Shown here piece by piece: positions 1,621 to 32,133 of a stretch of DNA of 64,000 nt. How positions within the stretch are numbered: position 1 is the stretch's first letter; each line of letters opens with the position of its first letter. The DNA comes from Ascochyta rabiei (Eukaryota; Ascomycota; Dothideomycetes; Pleosporales; Didymellaceae). A program made the translations under genes and the position numbers. The notes under the pieces were generated by a model. It saw only the letters and a list, made by a program, of their open reading frames with translations. It made no database searches and was not told where the DNA came from. The stretch lies in contig NC_082413.1 of the NCBI RefSeq assembly GCF_004011695.2, positions 1,843,001-1,907,000 of the forward strand, given 5' to 3'.

Positions 1621-2548
1621 CTAGGACTTCATCTCCATATCAGCGCCAGCACCAAGCAAAAGTCTAATCGTATCTAAATCCTCGCGTTCAATAGCGATGT
1701 GTAGAGCTGTAAGGCCCAATGCGTTGGTCTCGTTAACATTGATACCATTCCTCAACGCGAACAACACTGATGCCGAATTTCCTGATTGCACGGCAAGATG
1801 TAGTAGATTGTTCCCATTCCTATCGACGACGTGGAGGTTTGCGCCGTTCTCGGTGAGAAGCTTTGCAATGCTGTTTTGACCTCGGAGGACAGCCTTCTGC
1901 AGAGCGTTGAGAGGTGGAGACTCAGACGACCTTGCTGGTCGGGTCGTAGAAGCATTCTGAGCGGGCAAAAGTTAACAAATGTTTTTGTCGATACACCGTG
2001 GTCGCTCACCCCGGAAAACGTGTCATTTTCAACATTTATCCAGTGTGCTAGACTGTTCATTTCATGGCTATTCCGAGTGAACATCGCACCCTCTTGCATG
2101 GAAGGCATAAGGGACAGCGCTTCGAAATCATCGGCGTTGATGGCTGACTCTGAGGAAAGGGGAGTTTCTATTGTATCGTCCCAGAAACTGCCCAGCGATG
2201 TCGGAGCTGGTGTAGCCGTCGTCGTGCTTCCGTTTGAGTTTGCGGACGAAGACCTACTTACGTATGAGTCTAAAGCGGCTGTCGGTGGCCTTAAGGGATG
2301 TCCTTGTGTTGATACTGGTGAGCGAGATGCAAATGACTCGTTGGTATGGTCCGACTCTCGCTGTTGGAGCTTGACATTACGTCCTGACATTGGGTCAAGT
2401 GGGAGAAAGGGCAACGAATGTTGGAAAACTTACGGTACTTCCGTTGAGCGATTCTGTTCTGCGCCCTCCTACGCTCGGCGGCATCGGTGATTTCTCTCCA
2501 GTCATTCTCGTTTCCGACTGATGTCCTGCTGTCAGATTCTCTCGGCAT
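1621..2548 (-). CDS. bANK transcription factor (bZIP basic region plus ankyrin repeats), TOXE-like
   Basis: Three exons (2548-2434, 2383-2010, 1956-1621) join in frame to 274 aa. Residues 24-40 form a Yap/Pap1-type basic region (AERRRAQNRIAQRKYRR), but no leucine-zipper heptads follow. Residues 60-160 are a Ser/Thr-rich linker. Residues 175-274 hold about three ankyrin repeats (GNNLLHLAVQSGN, GLTALHIAIERED). A zipperless basic region with C-terminal ankyrins defines the bANK family, to which TOXE of the HC-toxin cluster and the apicidin regulator belong; these are cluster-specific activators. The protein is shorter than TOXE and ends within or just after a repeat, so a lost C-terminus is possible. 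It lies about 8 kb from the MFS gene, separated by transposons. Control of the 10-33 kb cluster is inference. Confidence 0.85.
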
Positions 2549-10578: not shown

Positions 10579-12252
10579 CTACGCTTTTTTCAAATTGAGT
10601 CTGCCGATGCCCCTTAAGCCCCAGGCGAAAAGTAAAATTGTAGCGCAAGACAAAGAAAAAAAGTACCAAAAAGCGGCTCTGTACCCTTCCATCAGAGCTA
10701 ACGGCGATGTCTTCAAACTGTACTGACTGCGAGACGTTACACTGCCTGCTATTGCCCCACTTGTTGCTAGGGATACTGTCTTTGCGAGTTGGGTGATTGT
10801 GTTAAGCACGCCTCCTGCAAGTCCCTGCGTCTGTCGAGGAAACACAGATGTGACAACCAAATTAGATATAGTGTAGAGCCCATCTCCGCCAATAGGACTT
10901 AAAATAACCGCTAGAAATGCACATGTCCAATACGACCATTGAGGTTGTATAATGGCCATAAGAAGAATACCTACAGCTGTAAGCAACATACCACATGAAA
11001 CAGCCCATCCAACGTGAACTCTGTGAGCAAGAAATCCTACAACTAAAGTGCTGATCGTCGCAGACACTACGCCGGGCAGAAATCGGAGAGACGTCTGCAA
11101 CGGAGAGTTACTCTGGACTTCCTGGAAAAATAGACTTTGGTAGGAGTCTGAGCTTGTCACGGCACCCCAGGTCAAGAATAACCCGAGACAAATAGTTGTG
11201 AAGATTCGGTTGCGCCACAGTGAATTTGGGATCACTGCAGCCTTTCCAAGTCGTTCTTGACGGCCAACCCAAAACACGAATGCTGGGGCTAATACGACAG
11301 ATAAGATTAGCGTGACCAGTGTTCCAGGCTTCGTAATGTTGGATGGATGATCCGTTATCGTTCTGCTCCGTTAGCGGGCGGTCCGACATAAGATGCAACG
11401 TACTTACGTGAATGCATAAGAAAGTAACCCAACAGAAGCGCTTCCAATGATAATGCCGACCCAATCTACTTTGTGCTTCAAGTGCGTCCATAGGTCGGAC
11501 CTCTTCTGGTTCCTGAGGGGGAGCGCCCAGAATGCCAAAACAAAGACGATGCCGCTGATGATTGCAGCTATGTGAAAGCCCCATCTCCAATCTGGAAGAA
11601 GACCACCAAGCAATAGGCCCACGGAGAACCCAACTGGCTGCGATCCACCTAGCAAGGCAAACGCCATGTTTCTCTGCTTGCCATCTGGGAAGGTTTCAGA
11701 AACGATGCTAACGGCTGTGGGAAGGAGGAATGAAGATGCGATTCCGCCAAAAGCGCGAAAAGTAATAATCTGCGCACTTGTTTGTGCAAGACCACAAGCA
11801 AGTGTAAAGGCAGTCTGTAACACACAGCCAGCAAGGTACATTGGCCTACTCCCAACAGCATCAGCAATAGAGCCTAGGAGGAGGAGTGTACACCCGCAGG
11901 TCAAAGAATAGACAGACGTCGGCCTTATCGCGTAAGCTCAAATACGATAAATCCCGGAACTTACATACCATAATTGTAACTTTGGACTAAGATGTAAATC
12001 ACTCGCAATCGTTGGAAAGGTAATAATGACCAGACTAGCTAGCAAAGCGTTCAACCCAGTGGCGCAAACCGTAATTACAACTACTGTAACTGGTTTGCTT
12101 TGTACGGAACTCTCATTTCCTTCATCCGTTCCGACGGCTAGCGGGCTGATTGGTCTTGCACTAAGCAGTGTAGAAACAGACGGCTCGTCTCTCAGCGGTC
12201 CAGGAAGTTTTGATAGTGATTGATCTGTCTCAGCATACGTGGTGGAACCCAT
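10579..12252 (-). CDS. MFS drug:H+ antiporter, 14-TM (DHA2) family
   Basis: Three exons (12252-11969, 11923-11408, 11362-10579) join in frame to 527 aa. The N-terminal 55 residues are polar and cytosolic; hydrophobic helices follow. Family landmarks are LWPTSVYSLTCG across the first junction, GSIADAVGSRPMYLAG (loop 2-3 motif A), GGSQPVGFSVGLLLGG (antiporter motif C in TM5) and PAFVFWVGRQERLG. The predicted location is the plasma or vacuolar membrane. Members in biosynthetic clusters usually export the product and protect the producer. It is transcribed away from the PLP-enzyme gene across a 611 bp shared upstream region. No damage is seen. Substrate cannot be predicted. Confidence 0.93.
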
Positions 12253-12863
12253 TGTTGTGATAGCTCTCGAGGCACGGCGATGAATAGAAAGGGACTAGAA
12301 GGCTGGTACGTGAGTGCTGGGGTTTCAGAATTGAAAGTGGGGACGCGCGAAAACTCGCGCCGGATGCAGAGCTTAGGGTAGGTACGCACAGAGAGTGGTG
12401 TTAGTATGTCGTAAGAGGGGGGTCTTGAAGATGGAACAGCCGAAGACTCTCTTTTAAAGAAATTGTGAATCTCTGCGATTTCAAATGCATGCTATGCAAG
12501 AATAACCTGCTTTTCGGAGGATGTTTCATGAGTGTGCCGAGGTAAAGATGCGCAACCACCCGTCCCGCGGGTAAGCTTACACTGACGATCGTAAGATCAG
12601 CTTACAAGATCAGCTTATATCGCTTGGTCTCCAGGTGAGAGGTCGAGTTCCACAACAATCAGCAGTCAATCTCTTCGCGTATCTCGCATGATGAGGAGAT
12701 GTATTACAGACCGGCGATCTGGACTTCGCTACTGGATACAGCACGCTCTTCAAGTAGAATATCTGCGCCTTTAAAGAGCTACCACTTCTGAAATATTAGT
12801 CTCTTGTATACTCAATCTGCTGTCACATTCATCCCTCACCATATCAAACAGATCTTTGCGACC
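12253..12863. promoter_or_regulatory. Divergent promoter between MFS and PLP-enzyme genes, with cluster motifs
   Basis: The 611 bp region separates two divergent start codons. It contains the palindrome GTAAGCTTAC at 12571-12580, ATCAGCTTAC at 12596-12605 (GTAAGCTGAT on the minus strand) and ATCAGCTTAT at 12609-12618. The same sequences lie upstream of the other cluster genes. Confidence 0.65.
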
Positions 12864-14257
12864 ATGACGGCTACCACTATCCCATACGACGTCGAGAGCG
12901 TTCGAAAACATTTCCCAGCATTGAACGGCGAAAGAATCCCTCTCAACAACGCCACGGGTAGTTTAGTATTCGATGGGGCTGTCCAAGCGTGAGTATTCAA
13001 AATAAGCGAGAACTACCTTTCTGTATGCCTGATTGGCATTTGGAGACATAGTTCGGAGTTCATAGCTGACGGTTCGCTAAGTATCGCCAACGCGATGTCC
13101 ACCTATCAACTGGACTTTATTGGTGGCGATGCAGCCAGCCAGCTAGAAATTGATGAGCGAAAGGCAAAGTACGTGGAGCTGGCTGGTTTCATGAACGCTG
13201 AGCCTGACGAAATTGGTATGTCGTCACCTGCATCGACAAGATAGCAATGCGTCCAAATCTCACCATCTGACAAACACGGACAGCTTTCGGACCCTCGACC
13301 AGTGGTCTCATTCGCAATCTGACCGCTTCCTTACGCCCTTTACTCAATTCCGACTCGGAAATGATCGTTTCAACATTGTGCCATGAATCCGGCGTTACAT
13401 CTTGGGTGGCTCTCGCGCGCTCCTTGGGCATAGAAATAAAGTGGTGGAGCCCGCCCGGAGGGAAAAGAAATAACTCTGCCAAACTCAGCGTCGAGACTCT
13501 GAAGCCGCTGCTTTCCCCTAAAACTAGGCTCGTCGCTTGCGGTCATGTATCAAACATCTTCGGCACTATACATGACATTCGCTCGGTCGCAGACGTTGTC
13601 CACACGATTCCCGGCGCCCTTCTCTCAGTTGATGGAGTAGCTTGGGCGCCTCACCGGCCCATTGACGTCAAGGCGATGGATGTCGACTTTTACTTCTTCA
13701 GCTGGTATAAACTATTTGGGCCACACTTCGCACAGATGTACGCTCGAAGCTCCGTGCAGCAACGACACATGACGAGCTTGAACCATTATCACATAGACCC
13801 TACCCCTCTTGACGTCAAAGTCCGCCTGGGCACAAGCTGCTACGAGTTCGAGGATGCTGTTCTTGAGATAGTGCGGTACCTGCAGCGCATCGGTTGGAAT
13901 CACATCATTGCACATGAAGTAGTCGTCGTCAAACCGTTGCTGGACTACCTCAACTCTCACCCAGAATGGTTCACACTTTACGGTGAAAAGTCTTCAGATC
14001 CGGAACTTCGAGTTTCCCTCGTTTCTTTTACGGTTAATGGAGTGTCCTCCAAGAAGGTCGTCAAGATTATCCACGAAACATCTCAATGCCGTATCTTGGC
14101 GGGAAGTGCTTATTCGCTCAGGCCGGTTCATGACGTCCTAGGACTGGATGATGAGGGTGTGATCCGTGTGAGCCTAGTTCATTACAATAACCTTCAAGAC
14201 ATCCAAACCTTCGTCAAAGTTTTAGACCGCGTAGTACGGGTCCTTTTTAGAGAATGA
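12864..14257 (+). CDS. Class V aminotransferase-fold PLP enzyme, cysteine-desulfurase-like (VC1184 type)
   Basis: Exons 12864-12988, 13082-13215 and 13284-14257 join in frame to 410 aa. The PLP lysine is K229 in SWYKLFGPH, the hallmark of the VC1184-like subfamily. D203 (SVDGVAWAPH, pairs with the pyridine nitrogen) and H211 are also present. GPSTSGLIRNL (residues 89-99) should bind the phosphate. Fold type I enzymes of this class act on the alpha or beta carbon of amino acids (desulfuration, transamination, epimerisation). The subfamily is mostly uncharacterised, so the reaction here is unknown. It lies between the pump and the NRPS-like gene and shares motifs with both, so I infer it makes or modifies the amino-acid-derived part of the product. 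The ATG at 12864 is the first in frame. Confidence 0.9.
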
Positions 14258-15035
14258 GCAGTGTTGGATGAGTCAATGCACCAATGGTATATCTGAACGA
14301 CAAGTTATCAAGCATCACTCATTTCTGGCGTTCTATGTATGTGTTGTTCAATGTTTCTCAGCATCAGTTCACGATAGAGTACACCTAATTTCAAACCCGT
14401 TTTCGAACGCACATATTCTATGCCATTGCTGCACGTTTATTGAGGCATCTGTAACCTGGACCATAGTACGAGTGTAGCATCTAGGCCTGTGCGGCCTCAA
14501 CTCAACCTGTACCAACGCTAGTAGCGACCCCAACTCAACTCCAACCCAGACCGTGGTACCCCCACCTATTTTGCTAGCCTAGAAATGAGGAGGTGCGCAG
14601 AAACCCTATGTGCGCGGACGGTATATAGACTAGCTCACCACTAATAACTGTCAACATGACCATGCGCGTCACACCAAATGTCACCTGTCACAATGGTTTC
14701 CGGACCTATGCGTCCGTCTATGCAGCGAAAATAGCATGAGCAGTGGCCTCACAAGCGCTTGTACCTAGTAGCGGGCCTTGCAGGAGTGGGCGTAATCGAA
14801 GTGCGGGAGCGGGTGTAAGCGAAGTGCAGGAGCGGGTGTAAGCTGACCGCAGGCAGGTGTAAGCTGATTTTGTTGTGAGCACTACTACGTTCCTTACCGT
14901 GGAGACGCTCATAGTCCTCCTACTAGCGCAGGGTCGCGTTTCTTTCCTGTTTTCTATTAACAACAGGTAACCCCTCTTCAAAATCTCTTCCACAACCATT
15001 TTGCTGTCTTGAAGTCCTTGAAAATCAACTCAATT
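14258..15035. promoter_or_regulatory. Upstream region of the NRPS-like gene, with repeated cluster motif
   Basis: Contains GTAAGCGAAG at 14815, GTAAGCTGAC at 14838-14847 and GTAAGCTGAT at 14859-14868, about 170-220 bp before the ATG at 15036. The first two sit in an imperfect tandem repeat (GAAGTGC then GGGAGCGGGTGTAAGC or AGGAGCGGGTGTAAGC). No gene is seen in the rest. Confidence 0.65.
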
Positions 15036-18000
15036 ATGTCCTCCTCTATTGTCATTTCAATTCCCTTACAGAGCAAATTGCATGCATTTTGTTCTACGAA
15101 CAATGTTTCGCCGGTATCGATTGCAAAGCTGGCGTTCGCCACAGTTCTTCATCAGTACTTTGATGCCTCCACGTTTACCTGCTTTGAAGGTCGTTCAAAC
15201 GACTGTGACGAACACACACTCTATCCAATAGCCAAGGGCCAACAGGTTAAATATAACTCAGGGCTTGCATCTACTGCTACGATTCGGGCAGCCTTACATT
15301 TCGGAGAAACCCACCAGCCATCTGATGATAACATAACACCGCTTCTCATCCAGGATGCGGCCACAGCAACCTTGAGCGACACTTTTGTTACGAAGAATCT
15401 CAATGCAGGCCTCGTGTTCGCCAAAGGAGCTACTAGTGCGCTAGAAGCATCTTCTTCAAGTTCAGCTGCAGCTCTAGTAAGTGATCTTCGAAAGTTCAGT
15501 TACTCCTGCGCCTTCCTAACATGAGTACTATAGAATGGACTAGGTCTTCTCCTGCGGTTAGACACAGAATCACTTTTGGCACAGATATCTTACAAAGCTG
15601 ACCAAGTATCGAAATTTACAGCTGAAGGCTTCGCCGACGCCTTTGCTGCAGCTATTCAGTGCATCGTTACGACCTCTATCGACACGGTTGTCGCAAATTT
15701 GGACATCTGCGGAGCGCAAAGCCGGGAAACTATATCTCAATGGAATCAACACTCCACAAGCGTACCCAACAAATTGCTTCACGATTTAGTAGGACAGGGC
15801 TTTCGCCACAAACCCGATGCGGTAGCCATCCTATCCTGGGATGGGGAACTGTCGTACTCAGACCTTGATAAGCGGTCTTCGAACCTTGCAGCTTATCTTA
15901 TGGAGACGTACGATCTTGGGCCAGGTCAGAAGGTGGCTTTGTGTTTCGAGAAGTGCACCTGGGCCATCGTGTCTATGCTTGCAACACTAAAAACCGGAGC
16001 GGCGTATAGCTGTCTCGATCCGAGCCACCCAAGTGCCCGTCACGACTCTCTCATCAACGCTCTGAACGCATCGGTCGTCCTCACTTCCACTTTATACGAA
16101 AGCCGTTTTAAAGATCATTCTGTTCTGGTACCTACCGAGGAGCTTGTCCGCCAACATCGCCAATACCGGCCCACAGACGTCCAGCCCAGCGATACCTGCA
16201 TGGTGGCTTTCACTTCCGGTAGTACCGGAAACCCTAAAGGCATCGTACATACGCATAACTCTTTGGTCACGGGTATAGTGTCGAATGCCCGCCCACAATA
16301 TCTCGATCGGGAAGGCGTCTCAACCTACCAGTGGTCGAGTTTCACATTCGATGTCAGCATGATAGAGATTTATGCGCCTCTAATCTACGGTGGGCGAATA
16401 TGCATTCCCTCAGATGAAGAGCGCATCAACAGCGTGGAGGAGAGCATGAACAGGATGGCAGTCAATTGGGCCTACTTCACCCCCTCTTTCGCGCGCCTCT
16501 TCGCACAGTACAACATTCCCTCCCTGCAGACCTTGCTCATGGGAGGCGAAGTTGTTACTGCCGATGATATAAATGCGTGGAACAATCGCGTGAAAGTGAT
16601 TCATTGTAAGTAGTCATTGGCAGGATACGCTCCTTTCCTAGTTTTTACTCGACGCTCAAGAAAATACCCTGGAAGATCTCGATATCCCAGAACAGCTGCT
16701 ACGACTGTACAGCAGTACCTTACTTCGCTGACCGCTTATCCCTAGCGTACGGACCTGCCGAGTCGGCCACATTTTTCTTGGCCGAATTCAATGGTCCTTG
16801 TCCCAAGATCGTACCGATTGGACCCGCACCAAATACGTATGCTTGGATCGTAAACCCCAACAATCACGAGCTCCTGTCGCCATTAGGTGCGATTGGAGAG
16901 ATGGTTTATGAGGGCCCTGGCCTTCTGAAAGAGTACCTTGGAGATCCCATGAAGACGGAACAAGTTCTAGTCGATGCCCCGTTGTGGAGGAAGACTATTG
17001 ACGCCCCCGCACCATCTTCTAAGCTTTACAAAAGCGGTGATCTCGTTCGCTATTTACCAAACGGTACAATGATGTACGTTGGGCGGAAAGACACGATGGT
17101 CAAAGTGAGAGGTCAGAAACTGGAGGTCGAAGAAGTAGAATCCGTCATACGAAAAAGTTTAGGTGGATTGGGTCAAGTGGCAGTCGATTTGGTGGAGTTT
17201 CACCATAGTGGGCCGAGGCTGGTAGTATTTCTGCAATTCTCAGAAGGGCGAGAGTTGAATAAAGACTCCAGCGGTGGATCCTCCGGCGCGCTCCACTTAA
17301 GCTCTATCTCGGACCAGAAGATGAGCACCTTAACCGGTCAGATTCGCTCCCTCCTCGTCGACACTCTGCCTGAATACATGGTTCCTCGAATTTTTTTACC
17401 ACTCGCCAAGCTGCCCACCAACTCAAACGGAAAGCTTGACCGTGCAAAACTCAAAGAGCATGCTCGCAACCTCTCGACAAACGAGCTATTGAAATACGCC
17501 GACTCTGGCTCAAGCAAAGACATCTTGACCGACATATCCACGGATGATAATGTTGCGCTCGAGATCAGTGACATACTAATCAAGATCCTCAGCGGCTCAG
17601 AGTCGGTGGAAGAACATCCTCTCAAGGGGAAGAATGCTACGTTAGAAAATCTAGGTCTCGACTCGTTGAGAACAGTCTCATTTGCGAGGTCAGTAAACGA
17701 GTCTTTCGGCCTCAAGATCCCAATCAAGACGTTCCGAAGGGTCAACTTGAGCGTTCAGGATATCGCCGAAATCGTCCGTCGCCAAGACCAGGGCATCACG
17801 CAATCCGAAGAACATTCCAGAGCAGCCATCATTTTGCAAGACATTGAGAAACTTGACAAGGAATTGGCAAGCGTGCAGCTTGAGAAAGAGATGCCACCAA
17901 AGACAAATATTCAAACAAGCAAGAGCTCGGTGTTCTTGACTGGAGCTACTGGCTTCCTCGGTAGCCAGATCCTTCGTCAACTGTTAGCTCTCGCCAGGGT

Positions 18001-19156
18001 ATCAAAAGTCATTGTGCTGGTTCGGGCGAAGGATATCAGTGTCGGCTTTGAAAGGATCGTAGCAGCCGCCACCACAGCCAAATGGTGGGAACCTGCGTTG
18101 GCGAGCCGTGTTGAAGTATGGCTAGGAGATCTCGCAAAGCCGCGATTGGGTTTATCACTGAGTCAGTGGGTACGCCTGGAGGGTACATGCGTCAATGAAT
18201 CAGAGGCAGTGACCAACATCATACACAACGGAGCTGCCGTGAATTGGTCGTCAACCTACGAGCGCCTACGTGCCACCAACGTCCTCAGCACGGTGCAAAT
18301 TCTGAAGATTGTTCTGGCGGGAAACGGACACCTGCAGACCTGTACCTACGTGTCGGGTGGTGATATGCACCTTTCAGAAAAGGCCGTAGCGGACGACAAT
18401 CTACGTCTTTCATCTGCAGACGGCTACTCGCAGTCAAAATTCGCATCTGATATCCTTGTACAGCGGTGCTCTGCTCGAGCTGCTGCCGGCCAGCGTATCA
18501 ATATGGTCAAGCCCGGTATCATCATTGGTACAGCAACCGAAGGCATCTCCAACATTGACGACTTCATCTGGCGGCTCGCAGCAGGTGTATGTGAAGCCGG
18601 CGCCTTTGTTGATGGCGAACAAAATGCGGTGGTTTGTCTTGCAGGTGCAGATCAAGTCGCGCAACGTATCATCCATTCCTGTCTTGGTAGGCAGTGCGAC
18701 GGAGATAGCCCACCCGAGGTTGTAAGGATGACTGAAGGCATCACCGCGGGTGATTTTTGGAAAGTCGTTTCTGATAGAACGGGTGTGATACTGCGTGCAA
18801 TTGATACTGACGAGTGGTTCCGGATTATGAATGCAAATGTGTCCCGTAAGGGCTCATTGCATCTTCTGTGGCCTGTCATGGAGTGGGTCGAACAACGAAA
18901 AGGAAGAATTGGTGATCCTCAGCTGCGCAGGTGTAGAGCCAGTAGTTGCAGTGGCCACTGTCTTGACCCTAGTGTTGGGCAAGGTGGCGATATCACCGGT
19001 TTACAATGCCAGCGAGACGAAAGCACTAGAAGGAAGACTCTGCAAGCATTACGCAAGAGCGTGGAATATCTTTCCAGTCTAGGCTTCTTGCTACCCAACT
19101 CTGGTCCAAATAATGCCGGGCAAAACGTGTTTTCTAGGTCTGGAGTAAACAAATAG
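15036..19156 (+). CDS. NRPS-like A-T-R enzyme (adenylation, carrier, thioester reductase) with C-domain remnant
   Basis: Exons 15036-15476, 15534-16605 and 16746-19156 join to 1307 aa. Residues 1-200 resemble the C-terminal lobe of a condensation domain (LLLRLDTESLLAQISYKADQ) but lack HHxxxDG, so they are probably structural. The adenylation domain (about 225-740) has AFTSGSTGNPKG, SYGPAES, YKSGDLVRY and the catalytic Lys K734 (NGKLDRAK). The carrier domain bears the phosphopantetheine Ser S811 in LGLDSL. The reductase (about 895-1250) has TGATGFLGS for NADPH and Y1064/K1068 (YSQSK). Such enzymes activate an acid, hold it as a thioester and release it as aldehyde or alcohol. The substrate is not predictable by eye. 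An optional 42 nt in-frame intron near 18940 cannot be excluded. The PLP enzyme upstream may supply or use the intermediate. Confidence 0.92.
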
Positions 19157-20116
19157 AAGACGTCCATAGCTATATATGTCGATTTCACCTGATTTCTCTA
19201 CTGACATTGTGACATGTACTGAACCCCACCACCCTTGTATGGCTCACTACAATCAAAAGAAACGAGGGTAACATGTTGAAATTGCAATTCTTTGGAAATT
19301 AGCATCAAGAGTAACCCAGTTAAAAAAGGATCTGCGCATGTGCTAAGCACTTTGATGTCGACTCCCAACGTTTTCCCCAGACAACATAGATGACTACAAC
19401 GAGCAGAAGATATGACGTGAGTGGAAAATACAGGAGGGGAGCACAATTGGACGATAATTACGGGGTACCCAACCGAGGTTTCTGGAGATTTCTAAATGAT
19501 CAGTACCCACATTGGGTGGGTCTTTTTGGTCATGCTAGGATCGACATCAACCTTCGTAGTCTTGTCCGTTCGTGATCCCGCCTTGTGGCTTCATGGAAGC
19601 GACCGCTACCAGGAGGCTCGATCAGCAGACAAGTGTAACTAGAAGTACTAGACTCGGCGGATTACAAAAAGTGGAGACGTATTCGGATCCATGGCCGAAG
19701 TAAGCTGACCCTGCAGCAAGAAAAGTAAGCTGATTTTGTAAAAAAAGTGTAAGCTGATCTGCTCGCGACAGATCATCATATTAGCTGCGTATGTGGCAAG
19801 TAGGTGTCAATACCTAATTATTCGGGAAGTTGACAATACGATAGCTTACTAGACGACATCTCTCCTATGACTATGAAAAGCCGAAGTTCATTATAGGGAA
19901 AGCAGTAGGCTGTAAGCTTACTTTTAAAGGGGGGGAAGCAGTGTACGCTCGACGACATGTGAACTCAGTGCCACAACACAGTCCCTATGGTTATTATATA
20001 GGTCACGATTTCTCCATGGTTCAAATATCTCATAAACGGACGATTCCAAACACTCTACGATTCACATCATCTTGCTACGCTATCCATTTTGTCTGCTCCT
20101 TACAGAACATTAAAAA
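19157..20116. promoter_or_regulatory. Upstream region of the 2OG oxygenase, four cluster motifs
   Basis: Holds GTAAGCTGAC at 19700-19709, GTAAGCTGAT at 19725-19734, GTAAGCTGAT at 19749-19758 and the palindrome GTAAGCTTAC at 19912-19921. All lie 196-417 bp before the ATG at 20117. The first three are spaced about 25 bp, near two and a half helical turns. No gene is seen between 19157 and 19690. Confidence 0.7.
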
Positions 20117-21280
20117 ATGGCTTCTCTTCCCCTGATTGACTTCTCTGTCTTCTACAATGGTACAGAAGTACAGCGCGCCAAATTGGCTGCTACAATTGCT
20201 GAAGAGCTGAAAACGCATGGTGCGATGCGTCTCATTAACACATCCATTACTGCCGAGACGATTGAGGAAGGATTTAAATGGGTAAGCCAAATATCGTCAT
20301 TTCCTTATGAGTGCGAGAGAATCAATACTAACGTTGTACGATCCACAATTACAGAGCAAAAAGTTCTTCTCGCTTCCAAACGAGGAGAAAGCGGCTATCC
20401 CCAACGAACGCAATGCAGACCCCCAGCGAGGCTGGAGCTATGTCGGATCGGAGAATACGTCCAAACTTGATATGATCAATAACGAGGGATTAGAGGATGA
20501 AAAGGTAACGACGAAGCGTTCCAACTGCTTTTAGCAACTGCTAGCCAACCTAGGGGAGGGGGGAACATCACTGACATGGATGTATAGGAACACTTCGATC
20601 ATAGCTCGGGAGCCGATACCGAGTTCCCCAGCAAATGGCCCGCTGAGTCCAGCATTCCAGGATACCGCGATTTCATGGAAGACCTGCTAGTGAAGTGCCA
20701 CATGGTCGGGCGCGAGGTGTTACAGAACCTCGAGCAAGGCCTCGGTCTACGCAGCGGCGAACTGCTAGAGCGCTGCTGCGAGACCCCCATCATTGATGAG
20801 CTGCGCATGAACTACTACGCGCCCATCTCGACGGCGAAGCTCAACACAGGCAAGTATCGTCGCGCGTGGCCGCACACCGATTTCGGTATGATCACTCTAC
20901 TGTTTCAGGACGACGCCGGTGGTCTCGAGGTGCAAGACCGCTCTAGCGATAAGAAGGATAGTTTCATCCCAATTCAGCATGAGCATCCGACTGAGGTTAA
21001 TGTTTATGTCAGCAACAGCCTTGAGTATATGACAAACAATTACCTCAAGGCTGGGTTGCATCAGGTTGCTACGCCGATCGGTATGCAAGATGTGGCCGAA
21101 GGCATCTTGCCCGAGCGTCAGTCAATTGCTTGCTTCATCAAACCTCGTCGCGAGGTCAATGTTGGGCCCATGAAGCAGTTCATCACGGCGGATAGGCCAA
21201 GGGCTTATGAGGATTTGACCGGATTGGAACTTCACAGGGTTAGAGTTGGCAAGCTTTATGGCGTAGCTGCCGCGGTCTGA
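20117..21280 (+). CDS. 2-oxoglutarate/Fe(II)-dependent dioxygenase (isopenicillin N synthase-like)
   Basis: Exons 20117-20281, 20355-20504 and 20588-21280 give 335 aa, near the usual family size. The N-terminal DIOX_N-type region begins LPLIDFS. The double-stranded beta helix carries the iron ligands H201 and D203 (WPHTDFG) and H263 (GLHQV), with R282 and S284 (RQS) to bind 2-oxoglutarate. Family members hydroxylate, desaturate or cyclise small molecules using O2 in the cytosol. It lies between the NRPS-like and PKS genes and has the densest set of cluster motifs upstream, so it is very probably a tailoring enzyme of this pathway. All key residues are present; the exact reaction is unknown. 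Confidence 0.93.
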
Positions 21281-21739
21281 TGATGTGGCTAATAGACAAC
21301 TGAGTATGCGTATTGAGTAGGGTTTTGCAGGAAGATCTGGACAAGGATGAAAGTCAAGATAATGTAACTCAAGGGCCTTCAAGAGATACAATCCAACCTT
21401 TCAAGCTATGCGAAACGGCGTAGTCTTGCCCTTAGAAGATCTTGGACCGAAAATCCATGTTGGTGTCTTGACAGACTCGAAAACCATTCAGATACATCCA
21501 AGCACCTCCAATCAGGTGTAGTGATCACTCAGTCAAGCACCTTCCATCTGCGTCTCGAGGGCTCTTAGTCGGCATTTTTGAGGTCTTCACACCACAAGTT
21601 CGATGTGACCAAAGTTGACTTTCTGACTTTCTTCTTGCAGCCCTGCTTCTCGGTCTCAAGGACGGCAGGATTTTCAACTTGTAAGAGGTCTCTGTGGCGT
21701 CATGAAGGGTCTACGTTTGACCAAGTCAAGTTAACTCCA
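21281..21739. other. Intergenic, no supported gene
   Basis: 3' flank of the oxygenase. I see nothing I can assign. Confidence 0.4.
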
Positions 21740-22003
21740 GCGTCTAGTAAGAAGGCAAGGAAGTAAGTACGTGTTAAAGGAGGTAAGGTAACCTAAAGAT
21801 GCTGTAAAAAGTGCTATAACGTAGGGCATAACTTGCGCTTGTGTAAAAAGCCTAAAGAAGGTGTTACTAAATAATATTATATACTGTACTACTATAAACA
21901 ATGCCAATGTGGGCCAATGCAAGCCATAATAGGGTAGAATGTTGGTGTGGTCTTGGCAGAGTGGCCGACTCCCCCGTGTGGCCGACTTACCCGTGGAATA
22001 CGT
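21740..22003 (+). mobile_element. 3' fragment of a pogo-like element with right terminal repeat
   Basis: The sequence parallels the last 260 bp of the complete copy at 42483-44345: AAGAAGGCAA, then a decayed CxxC zinc-knuckle coding segment, TAAATAATATTAT and the terminal repeat. The end reads GTGGCCGACT twice, then CCCGTGGAATACGT at 22003. Its 5' part is missing. It sits inside the metabolite cluster, between oxygenase and PKS. Confidence 0.7.
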
Positions 22004-22175
22004 CAAAGGATATTTAAAAACTAAATATCTAAGCCTGATTCTCCTTATGCCTTTATACCTTTAAGTACCAGAAAGATTTAGAGTACTGCCCAGGATGCGG
22101 GATGTAAAAGCACCAAGTCAGAGATGAGTCAGGTATGATTCAGGACAGGGACCTTTGGAAGGACCGGTGCTTTAC
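22003..22175 (-). repeat. Dispersed repeat, inverted copy of 703-887
   Basis: Reverse-complemented, this region aligns with 703-887. Shared blocks include CCAGTCCTTCCAAAGG (CCGGTCCTTCCAAAGG here), GACTCATCTC, TTTTACATCCCG and CTGGTACTTA. It directly abuts the pogo-like terminal repeat. Confidence 0.6.
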
Positions 22176-22774
22176 ATGATTCATTGCATACACTGCAACA
22201 ATAGCACATGCCGACGCTGGTAGTCGCGGCTGGGCGAAGCACTTGTCCAAGCATTCATCCTCTAGACAGCAGATAGGTGCCAATTTGGAAATTATGGAAT
22301 CTATTTTGACTCTTAAAACTTACCCACCAGTGTACTTGTGCCGGCGGCGTAAACTTTAATTCACCATGTCGTCGATTTGTGATATTTAGGAAAGGTCCTT
22401 CAGGACTGAGGTAATTTGACCTTTGTATATAATCAAAACACTGACACGTTACTAGTGCAGTCACTTCAAGCCACTCTCTTTAGTTGCATATTCGCGGCTT
22501 CCTGAAACAGTGATGGTGAAGTTTGGAAGCGACATGTGCTACGGTACCTAACGGTTAGGTTGCACAATAATGACTCACACCCATCCGTTGCGTGGCGGAA
22601 CAAGCGCACATGATTTTTTTCTCTCCATATTTATTTTATAACTCAGTTGGCATTGAGGCGCTAACTTGTAGACATGAGAGCACTAGCGAGGTATTCTCGG
22701 ATGCCCTGGAAACTGGGGCATGAAGTTTTTCTTAATCGCGACTTCGAAATTCTTCATCATCTACATCTGTACCA
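22176..22774. other. Intergenic, 3' side of the PKS
   Basis: No gene seen. A short ORF at 22674-22922 overlaps the end of the PKS and is accidental. Confidence 0.4.
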
Positions 22775-25700
22775 CTACGCAAGAGCCCCATCAACAATCT
22801 TGTTCGCCAAAATCTTCATACTCGTAGCAGTATCCAACATTTCCAGCATACTGACATCCGCTCCAAATGCGACGTTGAACCAGTTGCGCAACTCCGCTGC
22901 AATCAGACTGTCGACACCGTAATCCGCCACTGTGCGCGAAGCATCGACACCCGAAGCATCAACAAACAGCATCTGAGCCACCGTCTTCACAATCGCGTCT
23001 GTCACCAACGCCACGGTCTTGGATCGCTCGGCTGGGCCCGCCTTGACGGTCTCTTCAAATTCACTGCGCAAGCTCGCAACACCGGCGTTGTTGCCTCTTT
23101 CGTTGCCGCCGTCACCGCCGTCAGCCGACGCCTGGTAGCGCTCGGCATCGTCAAACGCTCGCATGATGAGCGAGACACGGGCATCAGTGTACCAGCGTGG
23201 ACTGTTGCCCGTGTTGCCGTTGTTTTCCGCCGCTTCTTCACGCTTGCGGGTCGCCATAGTGGCAGGGTCGAAGCAAGTGACCACGTTCGTCACAGAGAGC
23301 GGGTCGTCCACGGCACCAGTATATGGTTCTGTGCTGGCGGCAGGATCAAGCGCCGACTCATTGTTCAAGAAAGCTGGTTCAAGAAGCCGGAGGAAATTGT
23401 ACTCAGAAATGTCCATGACCTTGTTACGGGCCATCAAAGCGAGTGTAGTGCTGTTGGTACTGAGATGGCCAACATCACGGATAAGGCCGAACGAGACCGT
23501 CGAAGCTGGTAGACCCTGTTGGCGTCGCCATCGTGCAAAGTAGTCCTGGAAGTTGTTTGCAGCAGTATAGGCCGACTGCGTGGCGAGTGCGACAAAAGAC
23601 TCGATCGTCGTGGTCATGAGGAAGAAGTCTAGTGCATGAATCTTGGTGGCTTCGTGCAGATTCTTAGTACCCTGGACCTTGGCCGCCAGCGCAGATGTCC
23701 ATTGCTCAATCGTGAGTTTGTCGAATGATAAATCCTAGGATGCTTGTTAGACTTAAATCGCGGCGGAAGGTGGAAGTAACCGTCTTACCTGGTAAGAGAC
23801 TGCAGCGTGGACGATACCTTTGATGGGTCGGACAACAGCAGCGTCTTGAACAGCCCGGACAACGTCTTTACTGTCACTAACATCGCAACTGACGCACTCC
23901 ACTACAGTCCCAGAAGCGGCGAGCTTGTCAATGAGCATTTGACCCTCCGAATTGATCTTTCGACTGCGCGACAGGACGGTGAAGTGTCTCGCTCCACGTT
24001 CGGCCATGAAGTTGACGATGCTCCTGCCTAGGCCGCCCAACCCACCTGTGATAAGGTAATTGGCATTCCTGGCGAACTGAGCATGCGGCGCTGCGGGCAC
24101 CATCTTGACCAAAGCGTCCGGATTCTGGAACGTGACGACCAGCTTGCCGACGTGTGTACCCTTAGAGAAGGCCATTAGGGCTTGATCTAGCTGTGACACG
24201 TCATACGTCGTGATGGAGCTCAGCGGCCCCATTTGTCCAGCTCTGACACGTTTGTTGACAGTTTTCATAAGAGCAGGACCGAGAGCCCGGTCTGCGTCAT
24301 CCGCCACAGCCAAGTCAAAGGACGTGAAAGTCGCATTGCGCTTGAACAGCTCAAGGGCTAACGATGTGGAGTTCTGCACGTCAATACGGCCGACGTCGAT
24401 TATTCGACCCATGGGAGCCAGCATCTTGATGGAGTCATAGAGCAACTCTCCACTCGACGTGCTCAGGATGACATTGAAACCTTTGCCGTCAGTGGCTTCC
24501 ATGAGCTTGGCAAAGTCGGCTGGGTCGCGAGACGAAAAGACGTGCGAGGCGGGGATGCCTGCAACGTCGATGAGATAACGACGCTTCTCTTGCGTTCCCG
24601 CTGTGGCAAAAATCTCTGCTCCCTTGGCCTTTGCCAGTTGAATGGCAGAAAGACCAAGCCCACCAGTGGCTGACTGAATGAGGAGCCTCTCCTGTTCCTT
24701 CAGTTGGGTAACACATTCGAATGAGTAGATGGCTGTCATCCCAACAAGGGGAATCGTGGCCATCTTGACAAAATCTTCCCCAGGCAGCATACGGTAAGCG
24801 AAGTTGGCTGGCGCACGTACGTAATTGCCAAAGTGACCTCTACCGTATCCGTATACACGGTCGCCGACTGCAACGTTTGTCACATTTGAACCAACCTGGG
24901 CTACGACGCCAGAGTACTCCGAGGAGAAGGTGTTCATATCAAAGCGGCCGGCGGAAGTGAGAAGATCCTTCCAGTTGAGGCCGACTGCAGCCACCTTCAC
25001 TTGGATCCAGTCATCAGGCAAAAATTTCCATGTCTCTTCGTACGGCTTGAAGTACAAGGATGTCAAGAGACCAGGCGTCTCAAAGGCGGCTCGGACGCTT
25101 CCTTGGGAATCCAGAGGCAGCATCTCAGCGCGGCTGGGTCGACCCTCGGATAGCTCGAGTTTATCTTGTAGTGCGACATCGGGAACCAATCTGCTGACCC
25201 AGAGACACTCCTCTTGCCATACAAACTCGTAGTCTCGACTCTCGCCGGCGATGCGATCGGACAGGGCAAGCTCCTGGTCGAGAATGGTACGGGTCAGCCG
25301 TATCTCTTGGAAGTCGCTGTCGGGACTAACGTCAATTGATAGGAATTGCGAAGTAGGGTTTTCGGTCCCAAGCGTGCGTAGGAGACCCGTAGTGATCGAA
25401 GCGTCGGGATCATGGCCGTGGACGATGCCACCAAAAGTTACCCAAACCAAGTTTGCGGACTTGCGGATTAACGCTTTGAAAGACTTGAGATGAGTCTCGC
25501 TTGCATTGACGAGCAGACTTTTGCTGTCGGCAAAGGCAACGGTGCGTGAGTTGTCGGGCAGATGAGTCTCAACGTCCCCTATGGAGATGACCTTAAACTC
25601 AGTCCCACGCTCGGTGAGCTCATGTTCGATTCGACTTAGTAATTCGGGTTTGTTGTCACCATGAACAAGATGTACTGTTCCGTTCGGAACCTGGCCAACC

Positions 25701-28700
25701 TTCGCAGGCTCCTCGACTGCGCTAGATACAATTGTGCGAGCAGTGGTGTATGGAGAAGGGTAATCATCCAAGACGAGCTCAGCGCCGGCGAAGCCAGTCT
25801 GGTTAAGCGAAGCATTCCAGCCCTCTAGGTGCAGAAAGGGACTTTCGACACGACCATCCGGAATTCCATCCCAGTAGCCCGACAAGTGTCCAAGAACCAA
25901 TCCGTGGCCGATGACCGCCCGTGTGTTTTCCACAACGACAAGTCTGCCGCCCGGCTTGACCAGCTTCCGGCAGTTGGTCAAAGTCTTTACGATACTCGGG
26001 GTGGCATGCAAGCACTCGCAAGCCACGACCACATCGTAAACTGCTTCGTAACCGTGCTCAAGCGGGTTCTCTTGGATATCCAGCACGGAATACTTCATGT
26101 CCTGGAAATCGGCAAACGCCTCGCGAGCTTGCGCCAGGAAACCACTCGAGATGTCAGTGAACGTGTAGTCCTGGTATCTTTTGATGCCGTGGGGCTCAAT
26201 TAACGTTTTGAGGATCTTTCGTGTAGCACCACCGGTTCCGGCACCGATTTCGAGGATGCGCATATTGGGATTCGCGTATCCAAACAGGTCGAAGAAGCGG
26301 ACGAGCTGAGGGTACGCTCCTGTCATGATGAGGCCGTCTTCGTACATGCCGTGTAGAAGGTTGTCCTGGATCACGACTTCGAGACCCGTCTTGCGCTCGC
26401 TCAAGATGTCTTCCATGCTGTTGAATACTTTGTTGGCGATCTTGACGTCCGAAATGTGCCCGACCTCCGCGAACAGTTCCTTGATGAGTATACCGCGTTG
26501 AGAACTTGTTAAACTGTTAGCCTCGGCAACCCATTTGTTGTCGTCCGTCATACGCCTTCGAACCCAGGACAGGAACTTGTCAATATGCGCTGGCGCTGAA
26601 GAAAATTGGCCCTGGCCCGCATAACGCTCATGTATCTCAGCAACATAGAGCGTCCCAAGCCGTTCCAGTTTGTCAAACAGGTACGCTTTCTCGACATTCT
26701 CCGTAGGAGGGGGAAATCGTCGCTGAACTTGCTCATTGTCCATGGCACGAATATCGGGTTTCCACGACAAACGTAGGAAGGGGCTGGAGAACGCCTCTTT
26801 GTCAACGCCCGTAGAAGGCAAGACTTCTGTGTAGGTGACGCAGCGAAGGTTGCCCACGTCTAACGCTACCTGTTCCGATTTGTCCAGCACTTGCAGTTTC
26901 GCATGAGCACTACGCAGGCCCTTCATCGATCCAAGAGCGATTGCTACGGCCGAGTCCTGTGAAACTCCATTGCGGACATATAGCTGGTCTATATGAACCG
27001 GCACAAAGGCATTGCGAACTCGGTCGATCTGGCCACCATGACTGGCAACAAGTGACAGTTGGAACACAGCATCCAGAGATGCAGGGTGAAGCGGGTAATT
27101 CGACTCTCCTCCCTCGACGGTATCACGTGTAGTGTGTAGGGCCAACTGAGCAACAGCCAAGCCCTTGGACGGATCAGCTCGAATGTTGGACAAGGGCTGA
27201 AAGGTAGGGCCGTAGCCCAGCCCAATCTCGGCAAATTTCTTGTACCAGGCTTTCGTGTCCAGGGTTCGAGCGTCCATCTCTGTAGACATCTTCTCATTGG
27301 CAACGGATGTTCCGGCAATCACCCTGACCCGACCAGAACAATGTTCTGTCCATGTGCCGGCCTCACGTGCGACGGAGCTAATGGAAAACATGGCCCATGT
27401 GGGTGCTTTGGGATTTACAGCGTCGGCAAGCTCTAGGCTCGTGATAATCTCGAGACCAAAGTCATCATCAGGAAGCCTCATGGCCGAAGAAAAGGTGACA
27501 TTGCGGAGCTTGTATCCAGTAATGTCAAGTGGCTCACTCTGTTCATTGTATATGCGCGAAGCTGCCTCGATTACTGTCGCGATGTAACCCGCAGCGGGGA
27601 ACACAGGATATGGGAGGAGCTTGTGGTCGTTGAGCCAAGGGAGATCTTTTAATCGAAGGATATTTCGCCACTGTGGCCGCAACTTGGCATTTCCTGGAAG
27701 CTTTGATCCCAGCAGGTCGTGCCGAACAATATCTCGCCCACGGAACTCCTTGCTGAAGCGGCTTTCGTGGTATATGACCGGTCCATATGCGTACTGATAA
27801 GGCGGGAGGTTGGTTGCAGTAGTGCCATGGACAAGCTTCAACTGGTTGGCGCTAATCACATCAACGGCGTTCACGGCAGTGAGGTCCACTTCGGCATTCA
27901 GACTGAATAGACTACCGGCGAGTTGAAGCAAGCTGATCCCTCCATTTGTACCGCGGTTCAAGGTCGAGAAATACGGCAGTGACTTGTCGACGCTTCTCGA
28001 GATCTGGCCAACGGGACCTTTGAGAGCAGGGTGTGGCCCGATCTCGACGAGCACGTCAAGCGGATCTGGAAGATTCAACATATTGGCCAAGGCCTCCGAG
28101 AAGCGTACTGGGGATTCCAGGTTGGCGCGCCAGTAACTTGGAGAGACGGGAAGATTCTCGGTACTTTTGCTTGGATAGACAGATGACATCCATGGCCGTG
28201 TGGCATACAATTGTGACGGTTCAGCCTGGCCCAGAGACTTGACGTAGTCGAGGCCTTCGGAGAGGGTGCTGTTATAGAATTCACCCAGAGCAAGCATATG
28301 GTGGGAATGATATGCGTTACCCCCAGTCTTGAGCTCTCGGCTGAACACTTTGTCCTCATTGAGCTTAGCGGCAACGTCCTTGATGGTAGACTCATCACCA
28401 GAGAGCGTTACGCTGTCGGGCGAGTTGACAGCAGCGATTCTGACGCTGGACTCCAAGCCAGAGATGTATGCCTCAGCTTTGTCTAGGCCCAGTCCGACCG
28501 CCAACATAAGACCTTTGCTCTTGTTCTTGGATACGGCTTGGCCTCGAAAGTAGGCAGCAGCAATCGCCTGTGCAGCAGTGATCCGGCCAGCTGCGTACGT
28601 TGCCGCTATCTCTCCTGACGAATGTCCAGCTACTGCAGAAGGCCTGACGTTCCATGTATAGAGCAGGTCGACAAGGCCGATTTGGACAGCGGTACACACG

Positions 28701-30829
28701 GTCTGGGAGACCTCCGGCTTGTGAATATCATTGGGATCGCAATTCCCTGCCAGAACGTCTTCGATCTTCCAAGGCGACGGTGTTGGCAGGCTGGCGAGAA
28801 TAGAGTCGAGATACTCGATGGAGGTTCGGAAGACGGCGTATTCGAACAGGTCTGCGCCCATCGCGTGCCACTGGGCTCCCTGTCCAGTGAAAACAAAACC
28901 AAGCCTTGCAGTTTGGGTGCCGCTGGCGAGTACCTTCTCCTTGACTGCAAAGTCATTAGCGGGGCTTTCACTGTCGACGATGCGGAAAGTTCTCTGCATG
29001 AATCTCGAGCGTTTTGCCGCCAGGGTGTAGGCAACATCCGCCAGATTCTCCCTCTCGATAGCCTCGGATATCGCGGTAATGTTGAGGTCGAGGGAGGCTT
29101 CATTGTGTGCGGAGAACGGGATAAGCACACGTCGTCGAGGTTTGGCATTGATGTCCTTGACCAGGGTGGGTTTATATGAGAAGGGATAGTGGACCTTGTC
29201 CGCTTTTTCAACCAAATGCGATGCAGAATTTCCATTCATTCCGTTTTGATGATGTCCGTTGTGACCATTGGACGCATGGGTGCCATTGGTGTGGCCGTTG
29301 GTGTGGCCGTTGTTGTGACCAATGGACGTATTTGCTGTTCTTTTCTTGTAATCAGGCAACACATTCCTGACATCGTCAATGATACAATGTCCGTTCGCAC
29401 CGCCATAACCGAAAGAGTTGACGCTGGCTCGGCGGACTCTGCCGTCGGGCCAAGGGGTGTTTTCCGTCAAGATGTTGATACGGCCACCCTTCAAGTCAAG
29501 ATTTGGATTAAGCTTCTTGATGCCGATACTAGGGGGAATGAACCCATTCTCAAGCGCCAGCACCACCTTCATGATGCCTGCAATTGCGCTAGCAGGCTCC
29601 GTGTGCCCGATGTTGGTCTTGATGGAGCCCACAAGAAGCGGCTTCTCTGGCGTGGTCGCCGAACCGAAGACATTGCCGATGGCTGAGATTTCAATCGGGT
29701 CACCGACGGGCGTGCCTGTGCCATGGCACTCAAAGAACGTGGTATCCTTCATTGGAAGATTGCCGGCGTTTTCGTAAGCCTTGCGGATGACAGCTTCCTG
29801 GCCCTCCCTGCCGGGATGGGTAATGCCACCGGTGCGACCGTTGGCATTGAGCGCAGAACCCCTGACAAGAGCACGTATGGGGTAGTCGCCGTCAACAGCG
29901 GTTGACGTCCTCTTCAGGTACAGCGCAGAGAAGCCCTCGCCGCGCGCGTAACCGTCCGCCGAGGAATCAAAAGTGTGACTCGTCGAAGTGGGCGAAAGAA
30001 CACCGAGTTTCGTCATCATAAGTTGTGTACTGGGATCGATGATCGTATTGGAGGCAGCCACAATTGCGGAGTCGCAATCGCCATTCCTAATCGCACTAAT
30101 GGCCAAGTGTAATGCGTACATTGAGGAAGAGCAAGCTGTGTCGATGGTGACACTGTGTTTAATCAGCACTGAACCGCCTTGTTGAGAAGCAGTTGCTCAG
30201 AGCTGTGGTTGAACTTAGTGAAAGTAATGAATACTCACCTGGGTCCTCGCAGATTGAATATGTAATTGATGCGGTTGCTGAGAATGCTTGTGCCGGTACC
30301 AACACTCGCGTACGGCCTGGGATGATCCGTATCTCTGCCTTGAATTATGAGATGATCAGAGCTGAAGTTGCCGACAAAAACGCCAGTGGTCGATCCCGAG
30401 AAAGAATCCCATGGCTCTCCCGAGTTTTCGAAAGCTTCGTAGACCACTTCAAGCAGCTTTCTCTGCGACGGGTCCATCGTCTCCACCTCGAGCGAACCAA
30501 TACCAAAGAAGGCATGGTCGAAGAGCCGGGGATCTTCAGCAAGCAAGAAGCCTCCTTTGGTGGCAACAGTGCCTGGGTGCTCAGAATTGGGATGGTGGAA
30601 TCCCTTGCGAGAGAAGCGGTGGTCACCGAATTCTCTGTATCCCGAACGCTTGTTCTTTAGAAGCTCCCACAGACCGGACGCGTCTCGAACGCCCCCAGGC
30701 CATCTACAGCCTGCAAAAAATGGTTAGCATGTGAAGTTGTTGTATAGCATAGTTGGGCCTACCCATGCCAACAATGGCGATTGGCTCTGGGTCTGCAGAA
30801 GTGCCATTGGTTCCGTATTGGGAACTCAT
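22775..30829 (-). CDS. Highly reducing type I polyketide synthase (KS-AT-DH-MT-ER-KR-ACP)
   Basis: Four exons (30829-30763, 30710-30239, 30152-23789, 23734-22775) join in frame to 2620 aa, the normal size. KS: C187 (DTACSSS), H323, H363. AT: S692 in GHSSGE. DH: H1023 and D1207. C-methyltransferase: intact SAM motif LEIGAGTGG at about 1480. ER: about 1865-2187 with SATGGLGLSAIQLA. KR: about 2211-2400 with TGGLGGLG, Y2357 and N2361. ACP: S2577 in GVDSL. It should make a reduced, alpha-methylated chain from malonyl-CoA and SAM in the cytosol. There is no thioesterase or reductase, so release must come from elsewhere. An Asn-Gly-His repeat linker follows the KS. All active sites look intact. The start MSSQYGTNG is followed by the expected IAIVGMGCRWPGG. 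Confidence 0.96.
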
Positions 30830-32133
30830 CGTCAAAGTAATATCTGGCGATGAAGCGTCAGATCAGGAGAGTGTTGATCAGTTCTTGACTTCCTCGCCTA
30901 TGTGAATAGCAAAGTCTAACGAGAAAACGAGAGCGTGTAACGAGCTTTAATGTTTCACTCTTCAGGTGTCTTATAGGCAAATTACACCCTCGCATCGGAC
31001 GGCACCCTAGGTTATGGATTTGCTCCACAGTATCCAACCTCGTTTTGATACTGCTGAGATATCCCGCATCATGCAGATACCGGTAAGCTCAACCATGCAG
31101 TGCAGAATCTTGGGCCGACAATTAAATGCCCGTATACCAAGAATCGAACACTGGCATAAACTACTCTGACACTGATAAGCAGCAACACGACGTTACTGGC
31201 TATGTTTTGGATGGCGCATGTATTCTTTGAGGATGGGCGACCAAGAGGATACACTCAAACCGATGGCTGAGGGTCAATCTACGGCGTCAGCTCGTCTAGG
31301 TCCTAAATGCGGCTTTACCAGTACGGGTTTAAGGCTTCGGGTCTTTTGGGTCTTCGCTTTATTCTTGATAGACGTTCGTCTAGTAGCCTTGTAAGTGATA
31401 TAGCATGTCACGTGATATCTTGTCGCAGGCGTCCACGGTCTCTTCTCCAACCTGGTTTGTAGGTGGACTGCGCCACACGAAGCCTTTTGAGCTTACGTTT
31501 AAGAGCCGTCAAGTCATCATGCATTGAAAAGAAAGATGCTCCAATGAAATGACAGCATGTCATGTGAACATCGAGGCTTCAGGAGCTCACCGCCTGTCAG
31601 TCAGACCCACCACCCCGCCAGATCCTTCTGTGAACGTCCACAGATTAGACCGTTCCGCCCACGCCCCGACGGGCATATGGGTAAGGCAGACGGTTCGCTT
31701 GAAGATCGATGATTCGGGTCGAGATAGGTATTGGGCCTATCAAAAGGTAGTAAAGTAGCCACACTTATGCAGTGAGAATTGCTGACAGTGCGCCGAGGAC
31801 CGAAAAACATCGGCCTAAAAAGGCGTGGGCTCTCGGTCGAAGAATTACACGAGCTGTCGGCCGTTTCCCAAGACACATGGTATCATGCACCGGCCGTTTC
31901 GTCGCTTTTGCGGTCTTCGTTTGGACGAAAGAGCGTGCATCGGAGGTACGAGATGTCTTACAGCATTAGTTACCTGGGTTGCATAATGCTTTGATCGAAA
32001 TCGACGTCTAGCTGAGACGGAGGTTGAGAGGGTTCAAGACATAAGCACCTTTTCTTCGTGAATTCGAAACCATAAACCTTCTCCCTTTGCGATCAAAACG
32101 TGCCGCAACCAGAGATTCATCCTACCCCCCACC
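30830..32133. promoter_or_regulatory. Divergent region between PKS and O-methyltransferase
   Basis: About 1.3 kb separates the two divergent starts. It contains GTAAGCTCAA at 31083-31092 and the identical decamer on the minus strand (TTGAGCTTAC) at 31487-31496, a C-variant of the motif seen at the other cluster genes. No gene is visible; short ORFs at 31549-31994 have no recognisable content. Confidence 0.55.

Follow-up and report, generated by a model that had tools for sequence, protein, structure and literature searches.

Tandem promoter boxes of an NRPS-like gene cluster in Ascochyta rabiei and their candidate bANK regulator

Box arrays in three promoters of one gene set

The DNA analyzed in this study is a 64-kb stretch of the genome of the chickpea pathogen Ascochyta rabiei (hereafter the window), in which a short word, TAAGCTGA, recurs in the promoters of a gene set that includes a nonribosomal peptide synthetase (NRPS)-like gene. 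The set consists of a gene for an MFS transporter (10579..12252, minus strand, limits approximate), a class-V aminotransferase gene (12864..14257, plus strand), the gene for the NRPS-like A-T-R enzyme (15036..19156, plus strand) and a 2-oxoglutarate (2OG)-Fe(II) oxygenase gene (20117..21280, plus strand). Gene types were assigned from Pfam matches on open reading frames (ORFs), and the start codons were set by reading. The NRPS-like ORF was a 100% match to EKO05_0006126 of A. rabiei. Also in the window are a gene for a regulator of the bANK type, i.e., a protein with a basic region and ankyrin repeats (1621..2548, minus strand), and the genes of a probable second cluster.

The window contained seven copies of TAAGCTGA, all of which were in the three promoters of this gene set, and none was found in the eight further intergenic stretches of the window that were checked. 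In the divergent promoter shared by the MFS and aminotransferase genes, box 1 (12597..12605, minus strand) is part of TGTAAGCTGATC and lies 353 bp from the MFS start and 259 bp from the aminotransferase start. Box 2 (12610..12618, minus strand), a ATAAGCTGA variant, is in tandem with box 1 via a 13-bp duplication. The NRPS-like promoter possesses box 3 (14838..14846) and box 4 (14859..14867), both on the plus strand, 198 and 177 bp upstream of the predicted ATG at position 15036, respectively. In the promoter of the 2OG oxygenase gene are boxes 5 (19700..19708), 6 (19725..19733) and 7 (19749..19757), again on the plus strand, of which box 5 is 417 bp upstream of the predicted ATG at position 20117. 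Thus, each promoter carries two or three boxes, and these are found 177–417 bp upstream of a start codon. Alignment of the seven sites lengthened the word to (T/A)(G/A)TAAGCTGA(T/C)(C/T). No box was found upstream of the bANK regulator gene itself. A pattern search of the window found every site that a previous sequence-only reading of this DNA had listed, each where that reading had placed it.

Two other kinds of sites accompany the boxes. The palindrome GTAAGCTTAC is present in the MFS/aminotransferase promoter (12571..12580, no strand), where it is a weaker match to the position weight matrix of the motif, and in the 2OG promoter (19912..19921, no strand), which also has a GTAAGCT core at 19843-19849 on the minus strand. 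The palindromes, which the sequence-only reading had included among its sites, are indeed shared by two of the box promoters, possibly as variants of the box. Taken alone, however, they are not rare enough to be counted: GTAAGCTTAC occurred 43 times in the genome compared with 23 for the control, and two copies within 7.4 kb are unremarkable (0.32 such pairs expected). Elsewhere in the genome, GTAAGCTTAC was considered as a mark of bANK genes, as it was 233 bp (contig C15) and about 3 kb (contig C21) from ankyrin matches. In the 3.2-kb loci read at these two places, ankyrin repeats were seen but no basic region, and the proximity was treated as coincidence.

The arrays differ in their structure. 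Tandem Repeats Finder (TRF) reported a perfect 13-bp repeat of 1.9 copies beneath the MFS/aminotransferase box pair and a 23-bp repeat of 2.8 copies (82–88%) beneath the NRPS-like pair. The latter, a degenerate tandem repeat at 14779..14867 on the plus strand, holds boxes 3 and 4 as well as two box-like upstream copies, GTAATCGA (14792) and GTAAGCGAA (14815). The graded words of this repeat, GTAATCGA, GTAAGCGAA and two copies of GTAAGCTGA, may be a record of binding sites that arose or decayed by duplication. In the 2OG array the spacers differ, and TRF reported no repeat. Counting each duplicated array once leaves about five independent occurrences rather than seven.

Enrichment of the word in the window and in the genome

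The word was found more often in the window than chance allows, as the sequence-only reading had estimated. RTAAGCTSA occurred 10 times, compared with 3.09 ± 1.68 times in 100 dinucleotide shuffles, none of which reached 10. GTAAGCTSA occurred nine times, compared with 0.76 expected per 64 kb from its genome rate (Poisson P about 1e-7). The bare core GTAAGCT was found 23 times against 13 expected, and by reading some of these copies are splice donors, such as those at 33069 and 53675.

The motif discovery that the sequence-only reading had called for led to the same word. In an unbiased k-mer search of the MFS/aminotransferase, NRPS-like and 2OG promoters (2351 bp in total), GTAAGCT, TAAGCTGA, GTAAGCTGA and GTAAGCTGAT ranked first at k = 7, 8, 9 and 10, respectively. 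GTAAGCTGA was seen six times in the three promoters, where 0.02 copies were expected (P 1.8e-13 among 2262 k-mers); the smallest best P in 400 Markov-3 simulations was 4e-8, compared with 1.9e-13 observed. Against this, a P as small was reached in 12 of 300 triplets drawn at random from the remainder of the window. The five of these triplets that were listed all owed their rank to a CT microsatellite within a single sequence of the triplet. When a word was required in all three sequences, 2000 random window triplets gave at most four copies, compared with the six observed, and none of the 2000 matched the promoters. For TAAGCTGA, 0.04 copies were expected in the 2351 bp and seven were seen (P 4e-14); with the duplicated arrays collapsed to five occurrences, P was still about 1e-9.

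The genome that was scanned comprises 40.9 Mb in 23 contigs, and the reversed pattern of the same word served as control. GTAAGCTSA occurred 483 times in the genome and its control 443 times, showing that it is an ordinary word across the genome. Similarly, TAAGCTGA occurred 724 times and its control 831 times. What distinguishes the cluster is the arrangement of the sites. Of 74 WGTAAGCTGAY sites in the genome (control 49), six were in the 7.2 kb of the cluster, and no two of those outside were nearer to each other than 2760 bp. Tandem GTAAGCTGA pairs with a spacer of 30 bp or less were found three times in the genome, all three in the cluster, and not at all for the control. Of five TAAGCTGA pairs, four were in the cluster. 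The fifth (C2:177415) is a CTAAGCTGAC doublet beside simple-repeat DNA, and it was treated as chance given that the control pattern also yielded three pairs. The genome-wide scan, by which the sequence-only reading had proposed to test itself, therefore came out in its favor. What holds together as a set is TAAGCTGA in its three promoters, a sharper core than the motif GTAAGCT(G/C)A that had been assigned to the whole block from 10 to 33 kb. The nearest WGTAAGCTGAY pair outside the cluster (C20:158408-161178, 2760 bp apart, same strand) lies in a locus with one 225-aa ORF.

Among the matches listed for GTAAGCTGA in a search of the open-licence literature, no title named a fungal cluster regulator. 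In the portion of a paxilline paper that was available, GTAAGCT occurred twice, both times in primers (PMC3760044). In viral contigs, 11 pattern matches were found, of which none was a relative.

The bANK candidate and the reading of the box

The bANK candidate named by the sequence-only reading proved to be real. Its gene has three predicted exons (2548-2434, 2383-2010 and 1956-1621) encoding 274 amino acid residues, and according to this model it is intact. The protein translated from 2548-1621 was 100% identical to EKO05_0006121 of A. rabiei. The C-terminal part possesses ankyrin repeats (Ank_2, 3.5e-15, and other Pfam matches, residues 182–273), and the N-terminal part has, by reading, a bZIP-type basic region, AERRRAQNRIAQRKYRR. 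No heptad leucines follow this region in the sequence as read, i.e., there is no leucine zipper. The basic region was nearly identical in relatives from Plenodomus, Curvularia and Exserohilum and similar in a relative from Alternaria. A fifth aligned relative, a shorter record, was without this part. Moreover, the bANK and NRPS-like relatives of Plenodomus tracheiphilus were on contigs of identical size (35,579 bp), as were those of a JGI record (38,023 bp). The equal contig sizes suggest that linkage of the two genes is conserved and that they travel together. Between the presumed target cluster and the bANK gene is an open transposase ORF of 555 aa (6140-7807, plus strand) that matches the Pfam domains DDE_1 and HTH_Tnp_Tc5.

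The bANK protein gave 11 matches in the genome, of which three were the gene itself and eight were in six other loci. Three of these six loci were read, and none held a second gene with both a basic region and ankyrin repeats. The match at C2:1718555 is a bZIP-like basic region, and no ankyrin repeats were seen in its locus.

Known bANK regulators act through cluster-specific boxes, such as ToxE with the Tox-box ATCTCNCGNA and Apf2 with the Api-box TGACGTGA (PMC4109984). In Fusarium fujikuroi, the Api-box is found in all promoters of the apicidin F cluster except that of APF2 itself, and its mutation in a promoter nearly abolishes apicidin F production, although direct binding of Apf2 was not demonstrated (PMC4109984). 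The arrangement in A. rabiei is similar: a bANK gene is near the cluster, a short word that stands above genome background is in the promoters of the cluster genes, and the word is absent from the promoter of the regulator. One element can also serve a divergent gene pair in the apicidin F cluster (PMC4109984). Different from the Api-box, the A. rabiei box is another word, forms tandem arrays and is known from the sequence of one species. TGACGTGA itself occurred in the window only at 6031 and 19413, so that one of the three box promoters (2OG) contains it. In the HC-toxin cluster of Cochliobolus carbonum, the promoters that are regulated together likewise share a short site, and the bANK protein is ToxE (PMC4109984, PMC3729494). 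The Tox-box ATCTCNCGNA had no match in the window and is an unrelated word. The NRPS cluster fg3_54 of Fusarium graminearum has a pathway-specific activator, FGM4, that is bANK-like (PMC6389888). Different from the A. rabiei cluster, no box is described for it in the accessible part of that paper. In the available text of the KK-1 paper, kk1F is called bZIP and the phrase 'binding motif' does not appear (PMC10512319).

The best explanation of these results, to which we give a probability of about two in three, is that the MFS/aminotransferase/NRPS-like/2OG cluster, a small metabolite gene cluster, has (W)GTAAGCTGA(Y) as its cis-element and that this word is the DNA target of the bANK protein of the cluster (1621-2548). 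The two or three boxes of each promoter would recruit the bANK protein, with its basic region reading the bases and its ankyrin repeats making contacts. A larger number of boxes would raise occupancy, and binding would turn on all four cluster genes together. The array between the MFS and aminotransferase genes would serve both of these divergent genes. A site for a cluster-specific regulator, as the sequence-only reading had it, is still the best reading of a word confined to the promoters of one gene set; it was the extent of the set that was overdrawn. If so, an NRPS-like cluster that is still uncharacterised gains a candidate pair of regulator and site in the bANK protein and the box, and the box would be the third candidate in the bANK class after the Tox-box and the Api-box, bearing on what decides bANK specificity.

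Several observations weigh against this assignment. At E 0.001, Pfam gave no bZIP match for the basic region. Its only matches to solved structures were two weak ones with E values of 0.98 and 1.5, both of them TGA bZIP factors. The bANK gene is 10–17 kb from the boxes, and about 8 kb, including the transposase ORF, separates it from the cluster. As the Tox-box and the Api-box differ from the A. rabiei word, specificity is not transferable from the known systems. Outside the cluster, 68 WGTAAGCTGAY sites occurred as single copies (control 49). The best-matching form, TGTAAGCTGAT, occurred 19 times in the genome, three times in the cluster, with six for the control; the 16 single copies outside are a mild, unexplained excess (P about 5e-4), perhaps reflecting other targets or a word composition beyond the reach of the reversed control. 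Finally, judging from their repeats, two of the three arrays grew partly through local tandem duplication.

Some of these points would fit a real cluster element that is bound by another factor, either a second pathway regulator or a global one, rather than by the bANK protein. Such a factor is favored by the 8 kb that separate the cluster edge from the bANK gene and by the different sequences of the known bANK boxes, and further WGTAAGCTGAY sites together with the TGTAAGCTGAT excess are what a wider-acting factor would give. However, the bANK gene was the sole regulator-like gene seen beside the box gene set, the other transcription factor gene identified in the window is part of the probable solanapyrone cluster and its zinc cluster is degenerate, and the sites elsewhere in the genome are single, never in close arrays. 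We consider this explanation unlikely, though it accounts for the observations better than the remaining ones.

Local tandem duplication plus chance in unconstrained intergenic DNA could also have produced neutral repeats, for which the TRF repeats at two of the three arrays speak. The same 9-mer would then be needed as an independent seed in three promoters. Moreover, the spacers of the 2OG array are dissimilar, the collapsed count remains far from expectation (P about 1e-9) and none of 2000 random triplets was comparable, which makes a neutral origin improbable.

As for the mode of recognition by the bANK protein, GTAA is a Yap-type half-site. It is conceivable, although we think it doubtful, that this zipperless basic-region/ankyrin protein has a third kind of bANK target, an asymmetric 9–11-mer built on the half-site GTAA, in which tandem arrays replace dimeric palindromes. 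In that case, bANK regulators whose basic regions are alike would recognize entirely different boxes, because specificity would be set by the ankyrin part or by co-operativity of the arrays.

The adjoining solanapyrone-type cluster and other features of the window

Next to the box cluster are a highly reducing polyketide synthase (PKS) gene, probably sol1 (about 30829-22775, minus strand), and an O-methyltransferase (OMT) gene, probably sol2 (about 32134-33623, plus strand). Genes for an SDR, a Fungal_trans transcription factor, a FAD-binding oxidase and a P450 follow at about 46.9–55.3 kb. By their Pfam types, these genes match the solanapyrone gene list of PKS, OMT, dehydrogenase, transcription factor, oxidase and P450 (PMC11686517), and A. 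rabiei ArME14 carries a solanapyrone cluster (PMC7341154). The genes at 22.8–33.6 and 46.9–55.3 kb are therefore probably the solanapyrone cluster, an assignment made from gene content. Among the 120 matches listed for the PKS, two relatives were 98% identical, and those named 'Prosolanapyrone synthase' were only 48–49% identical. The transcription factor gene (48272-50744) encodes a Fungal_trans domain and a degenerate zinc-cluster stretch, CIPCYSKKQK. Sol4, reported to be the positive regulator of the solanapyrone cluster, is a Zn2Cys6-family protein that reportedly has no DNA-binding domain (PMC6891577), in which it differs from the bANK protein, and the broken zinc cluster is as expected if the factor is Sol4-like. 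Between the two groups of solanapyrone-type genes lies AT-rich DNA of about 12 kb (34–46 kb, GC 0.34–0.42) that resembles the product of repeat-induced point mutation.

The block from 10 to 33 kb, which the sequence-only reading had treated as one PKS/NRPS cluster, is thus better divided. A probable copy of the solanapyrone cluster, known from A. rabiei and Alternaria solani, directly adjoins the box cluster; its PKS and OMT genes, which fit a solanapyrone set with its own regulator Sol4, had been merged into the earlier finding. TAAGCTGA was not in the checked promoters of the solanapyrone-type gene set, so the box separates the NRPS-like cluster from its neighbor by DNA alone.

Three of the sites first assigned to the motif drop out. 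Two GTAAGCTCA sites in the PKS/OMT intergenic region (31083..31091, plus strand, and 31488..31496, minus strand), counted as GTAAGCTCAA members at 31083 and 31487, are in the other cluster, statistically weak and probably outside the system. The third, in a probable MFS intron (11932..11940, plus strand), reads TGAGCTTAC on the coding strand, possibly a branch site; it is unremarkable alone and probably unrelated. Overall, GTAAGCTCAA occurred 63 times in the genome (control 45) and three times in the window, two of these within the other cluster, and it does not match the extended motif. A single regulator for both clusters, in which the bANK protein would also drive the probable sol1 and sol2 through the GTAAGCTCAA pair, draws on the distance of 404 bp between the two sites, the sole pair that close among the 63 genome sites. 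However, about 0.04 such pairs are expected by chance and this one was chosen after the fact, the upstream regions of the SDR, transcription factor and FAD/P450 genes were without the GTAAGCT core, and the GTAAGCTCAA sites were outside the 30 best matches of the motif matrix. A shared regulator is thus very improbable.

Least probable of all is that the word acts in splicing or at the RNA level within 5' leader introns, with GTAAGC as the donor and CTGAC as a branch-like sequence: GTAAGC resembles the fungal 5' splice site, GTAAGCT donors are found by reading in the OMT (33069) and P450 (53675) genes and the box orientation agrees with a downstream gene, but conservation extends past the donor through CTGA, the copies are in tandem twos or threes, and a genome frequency near that of the reversed control excludes a general splice word.

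The left flank of the window (10 kb) contains several long ORFs, one TAAGCTCA and scattered GTAAGCTT; box arrays were looked for there and none was seen. Inside the window, a partial Peptidase_C12 match is found at about 9.2–9.7 kb. Between 3840 and 4240, a GGGGGTGCCTGAACAGAGTAGAAA-like unit is present in direct and inverted copies and, by eye, resembles a small repeat element.

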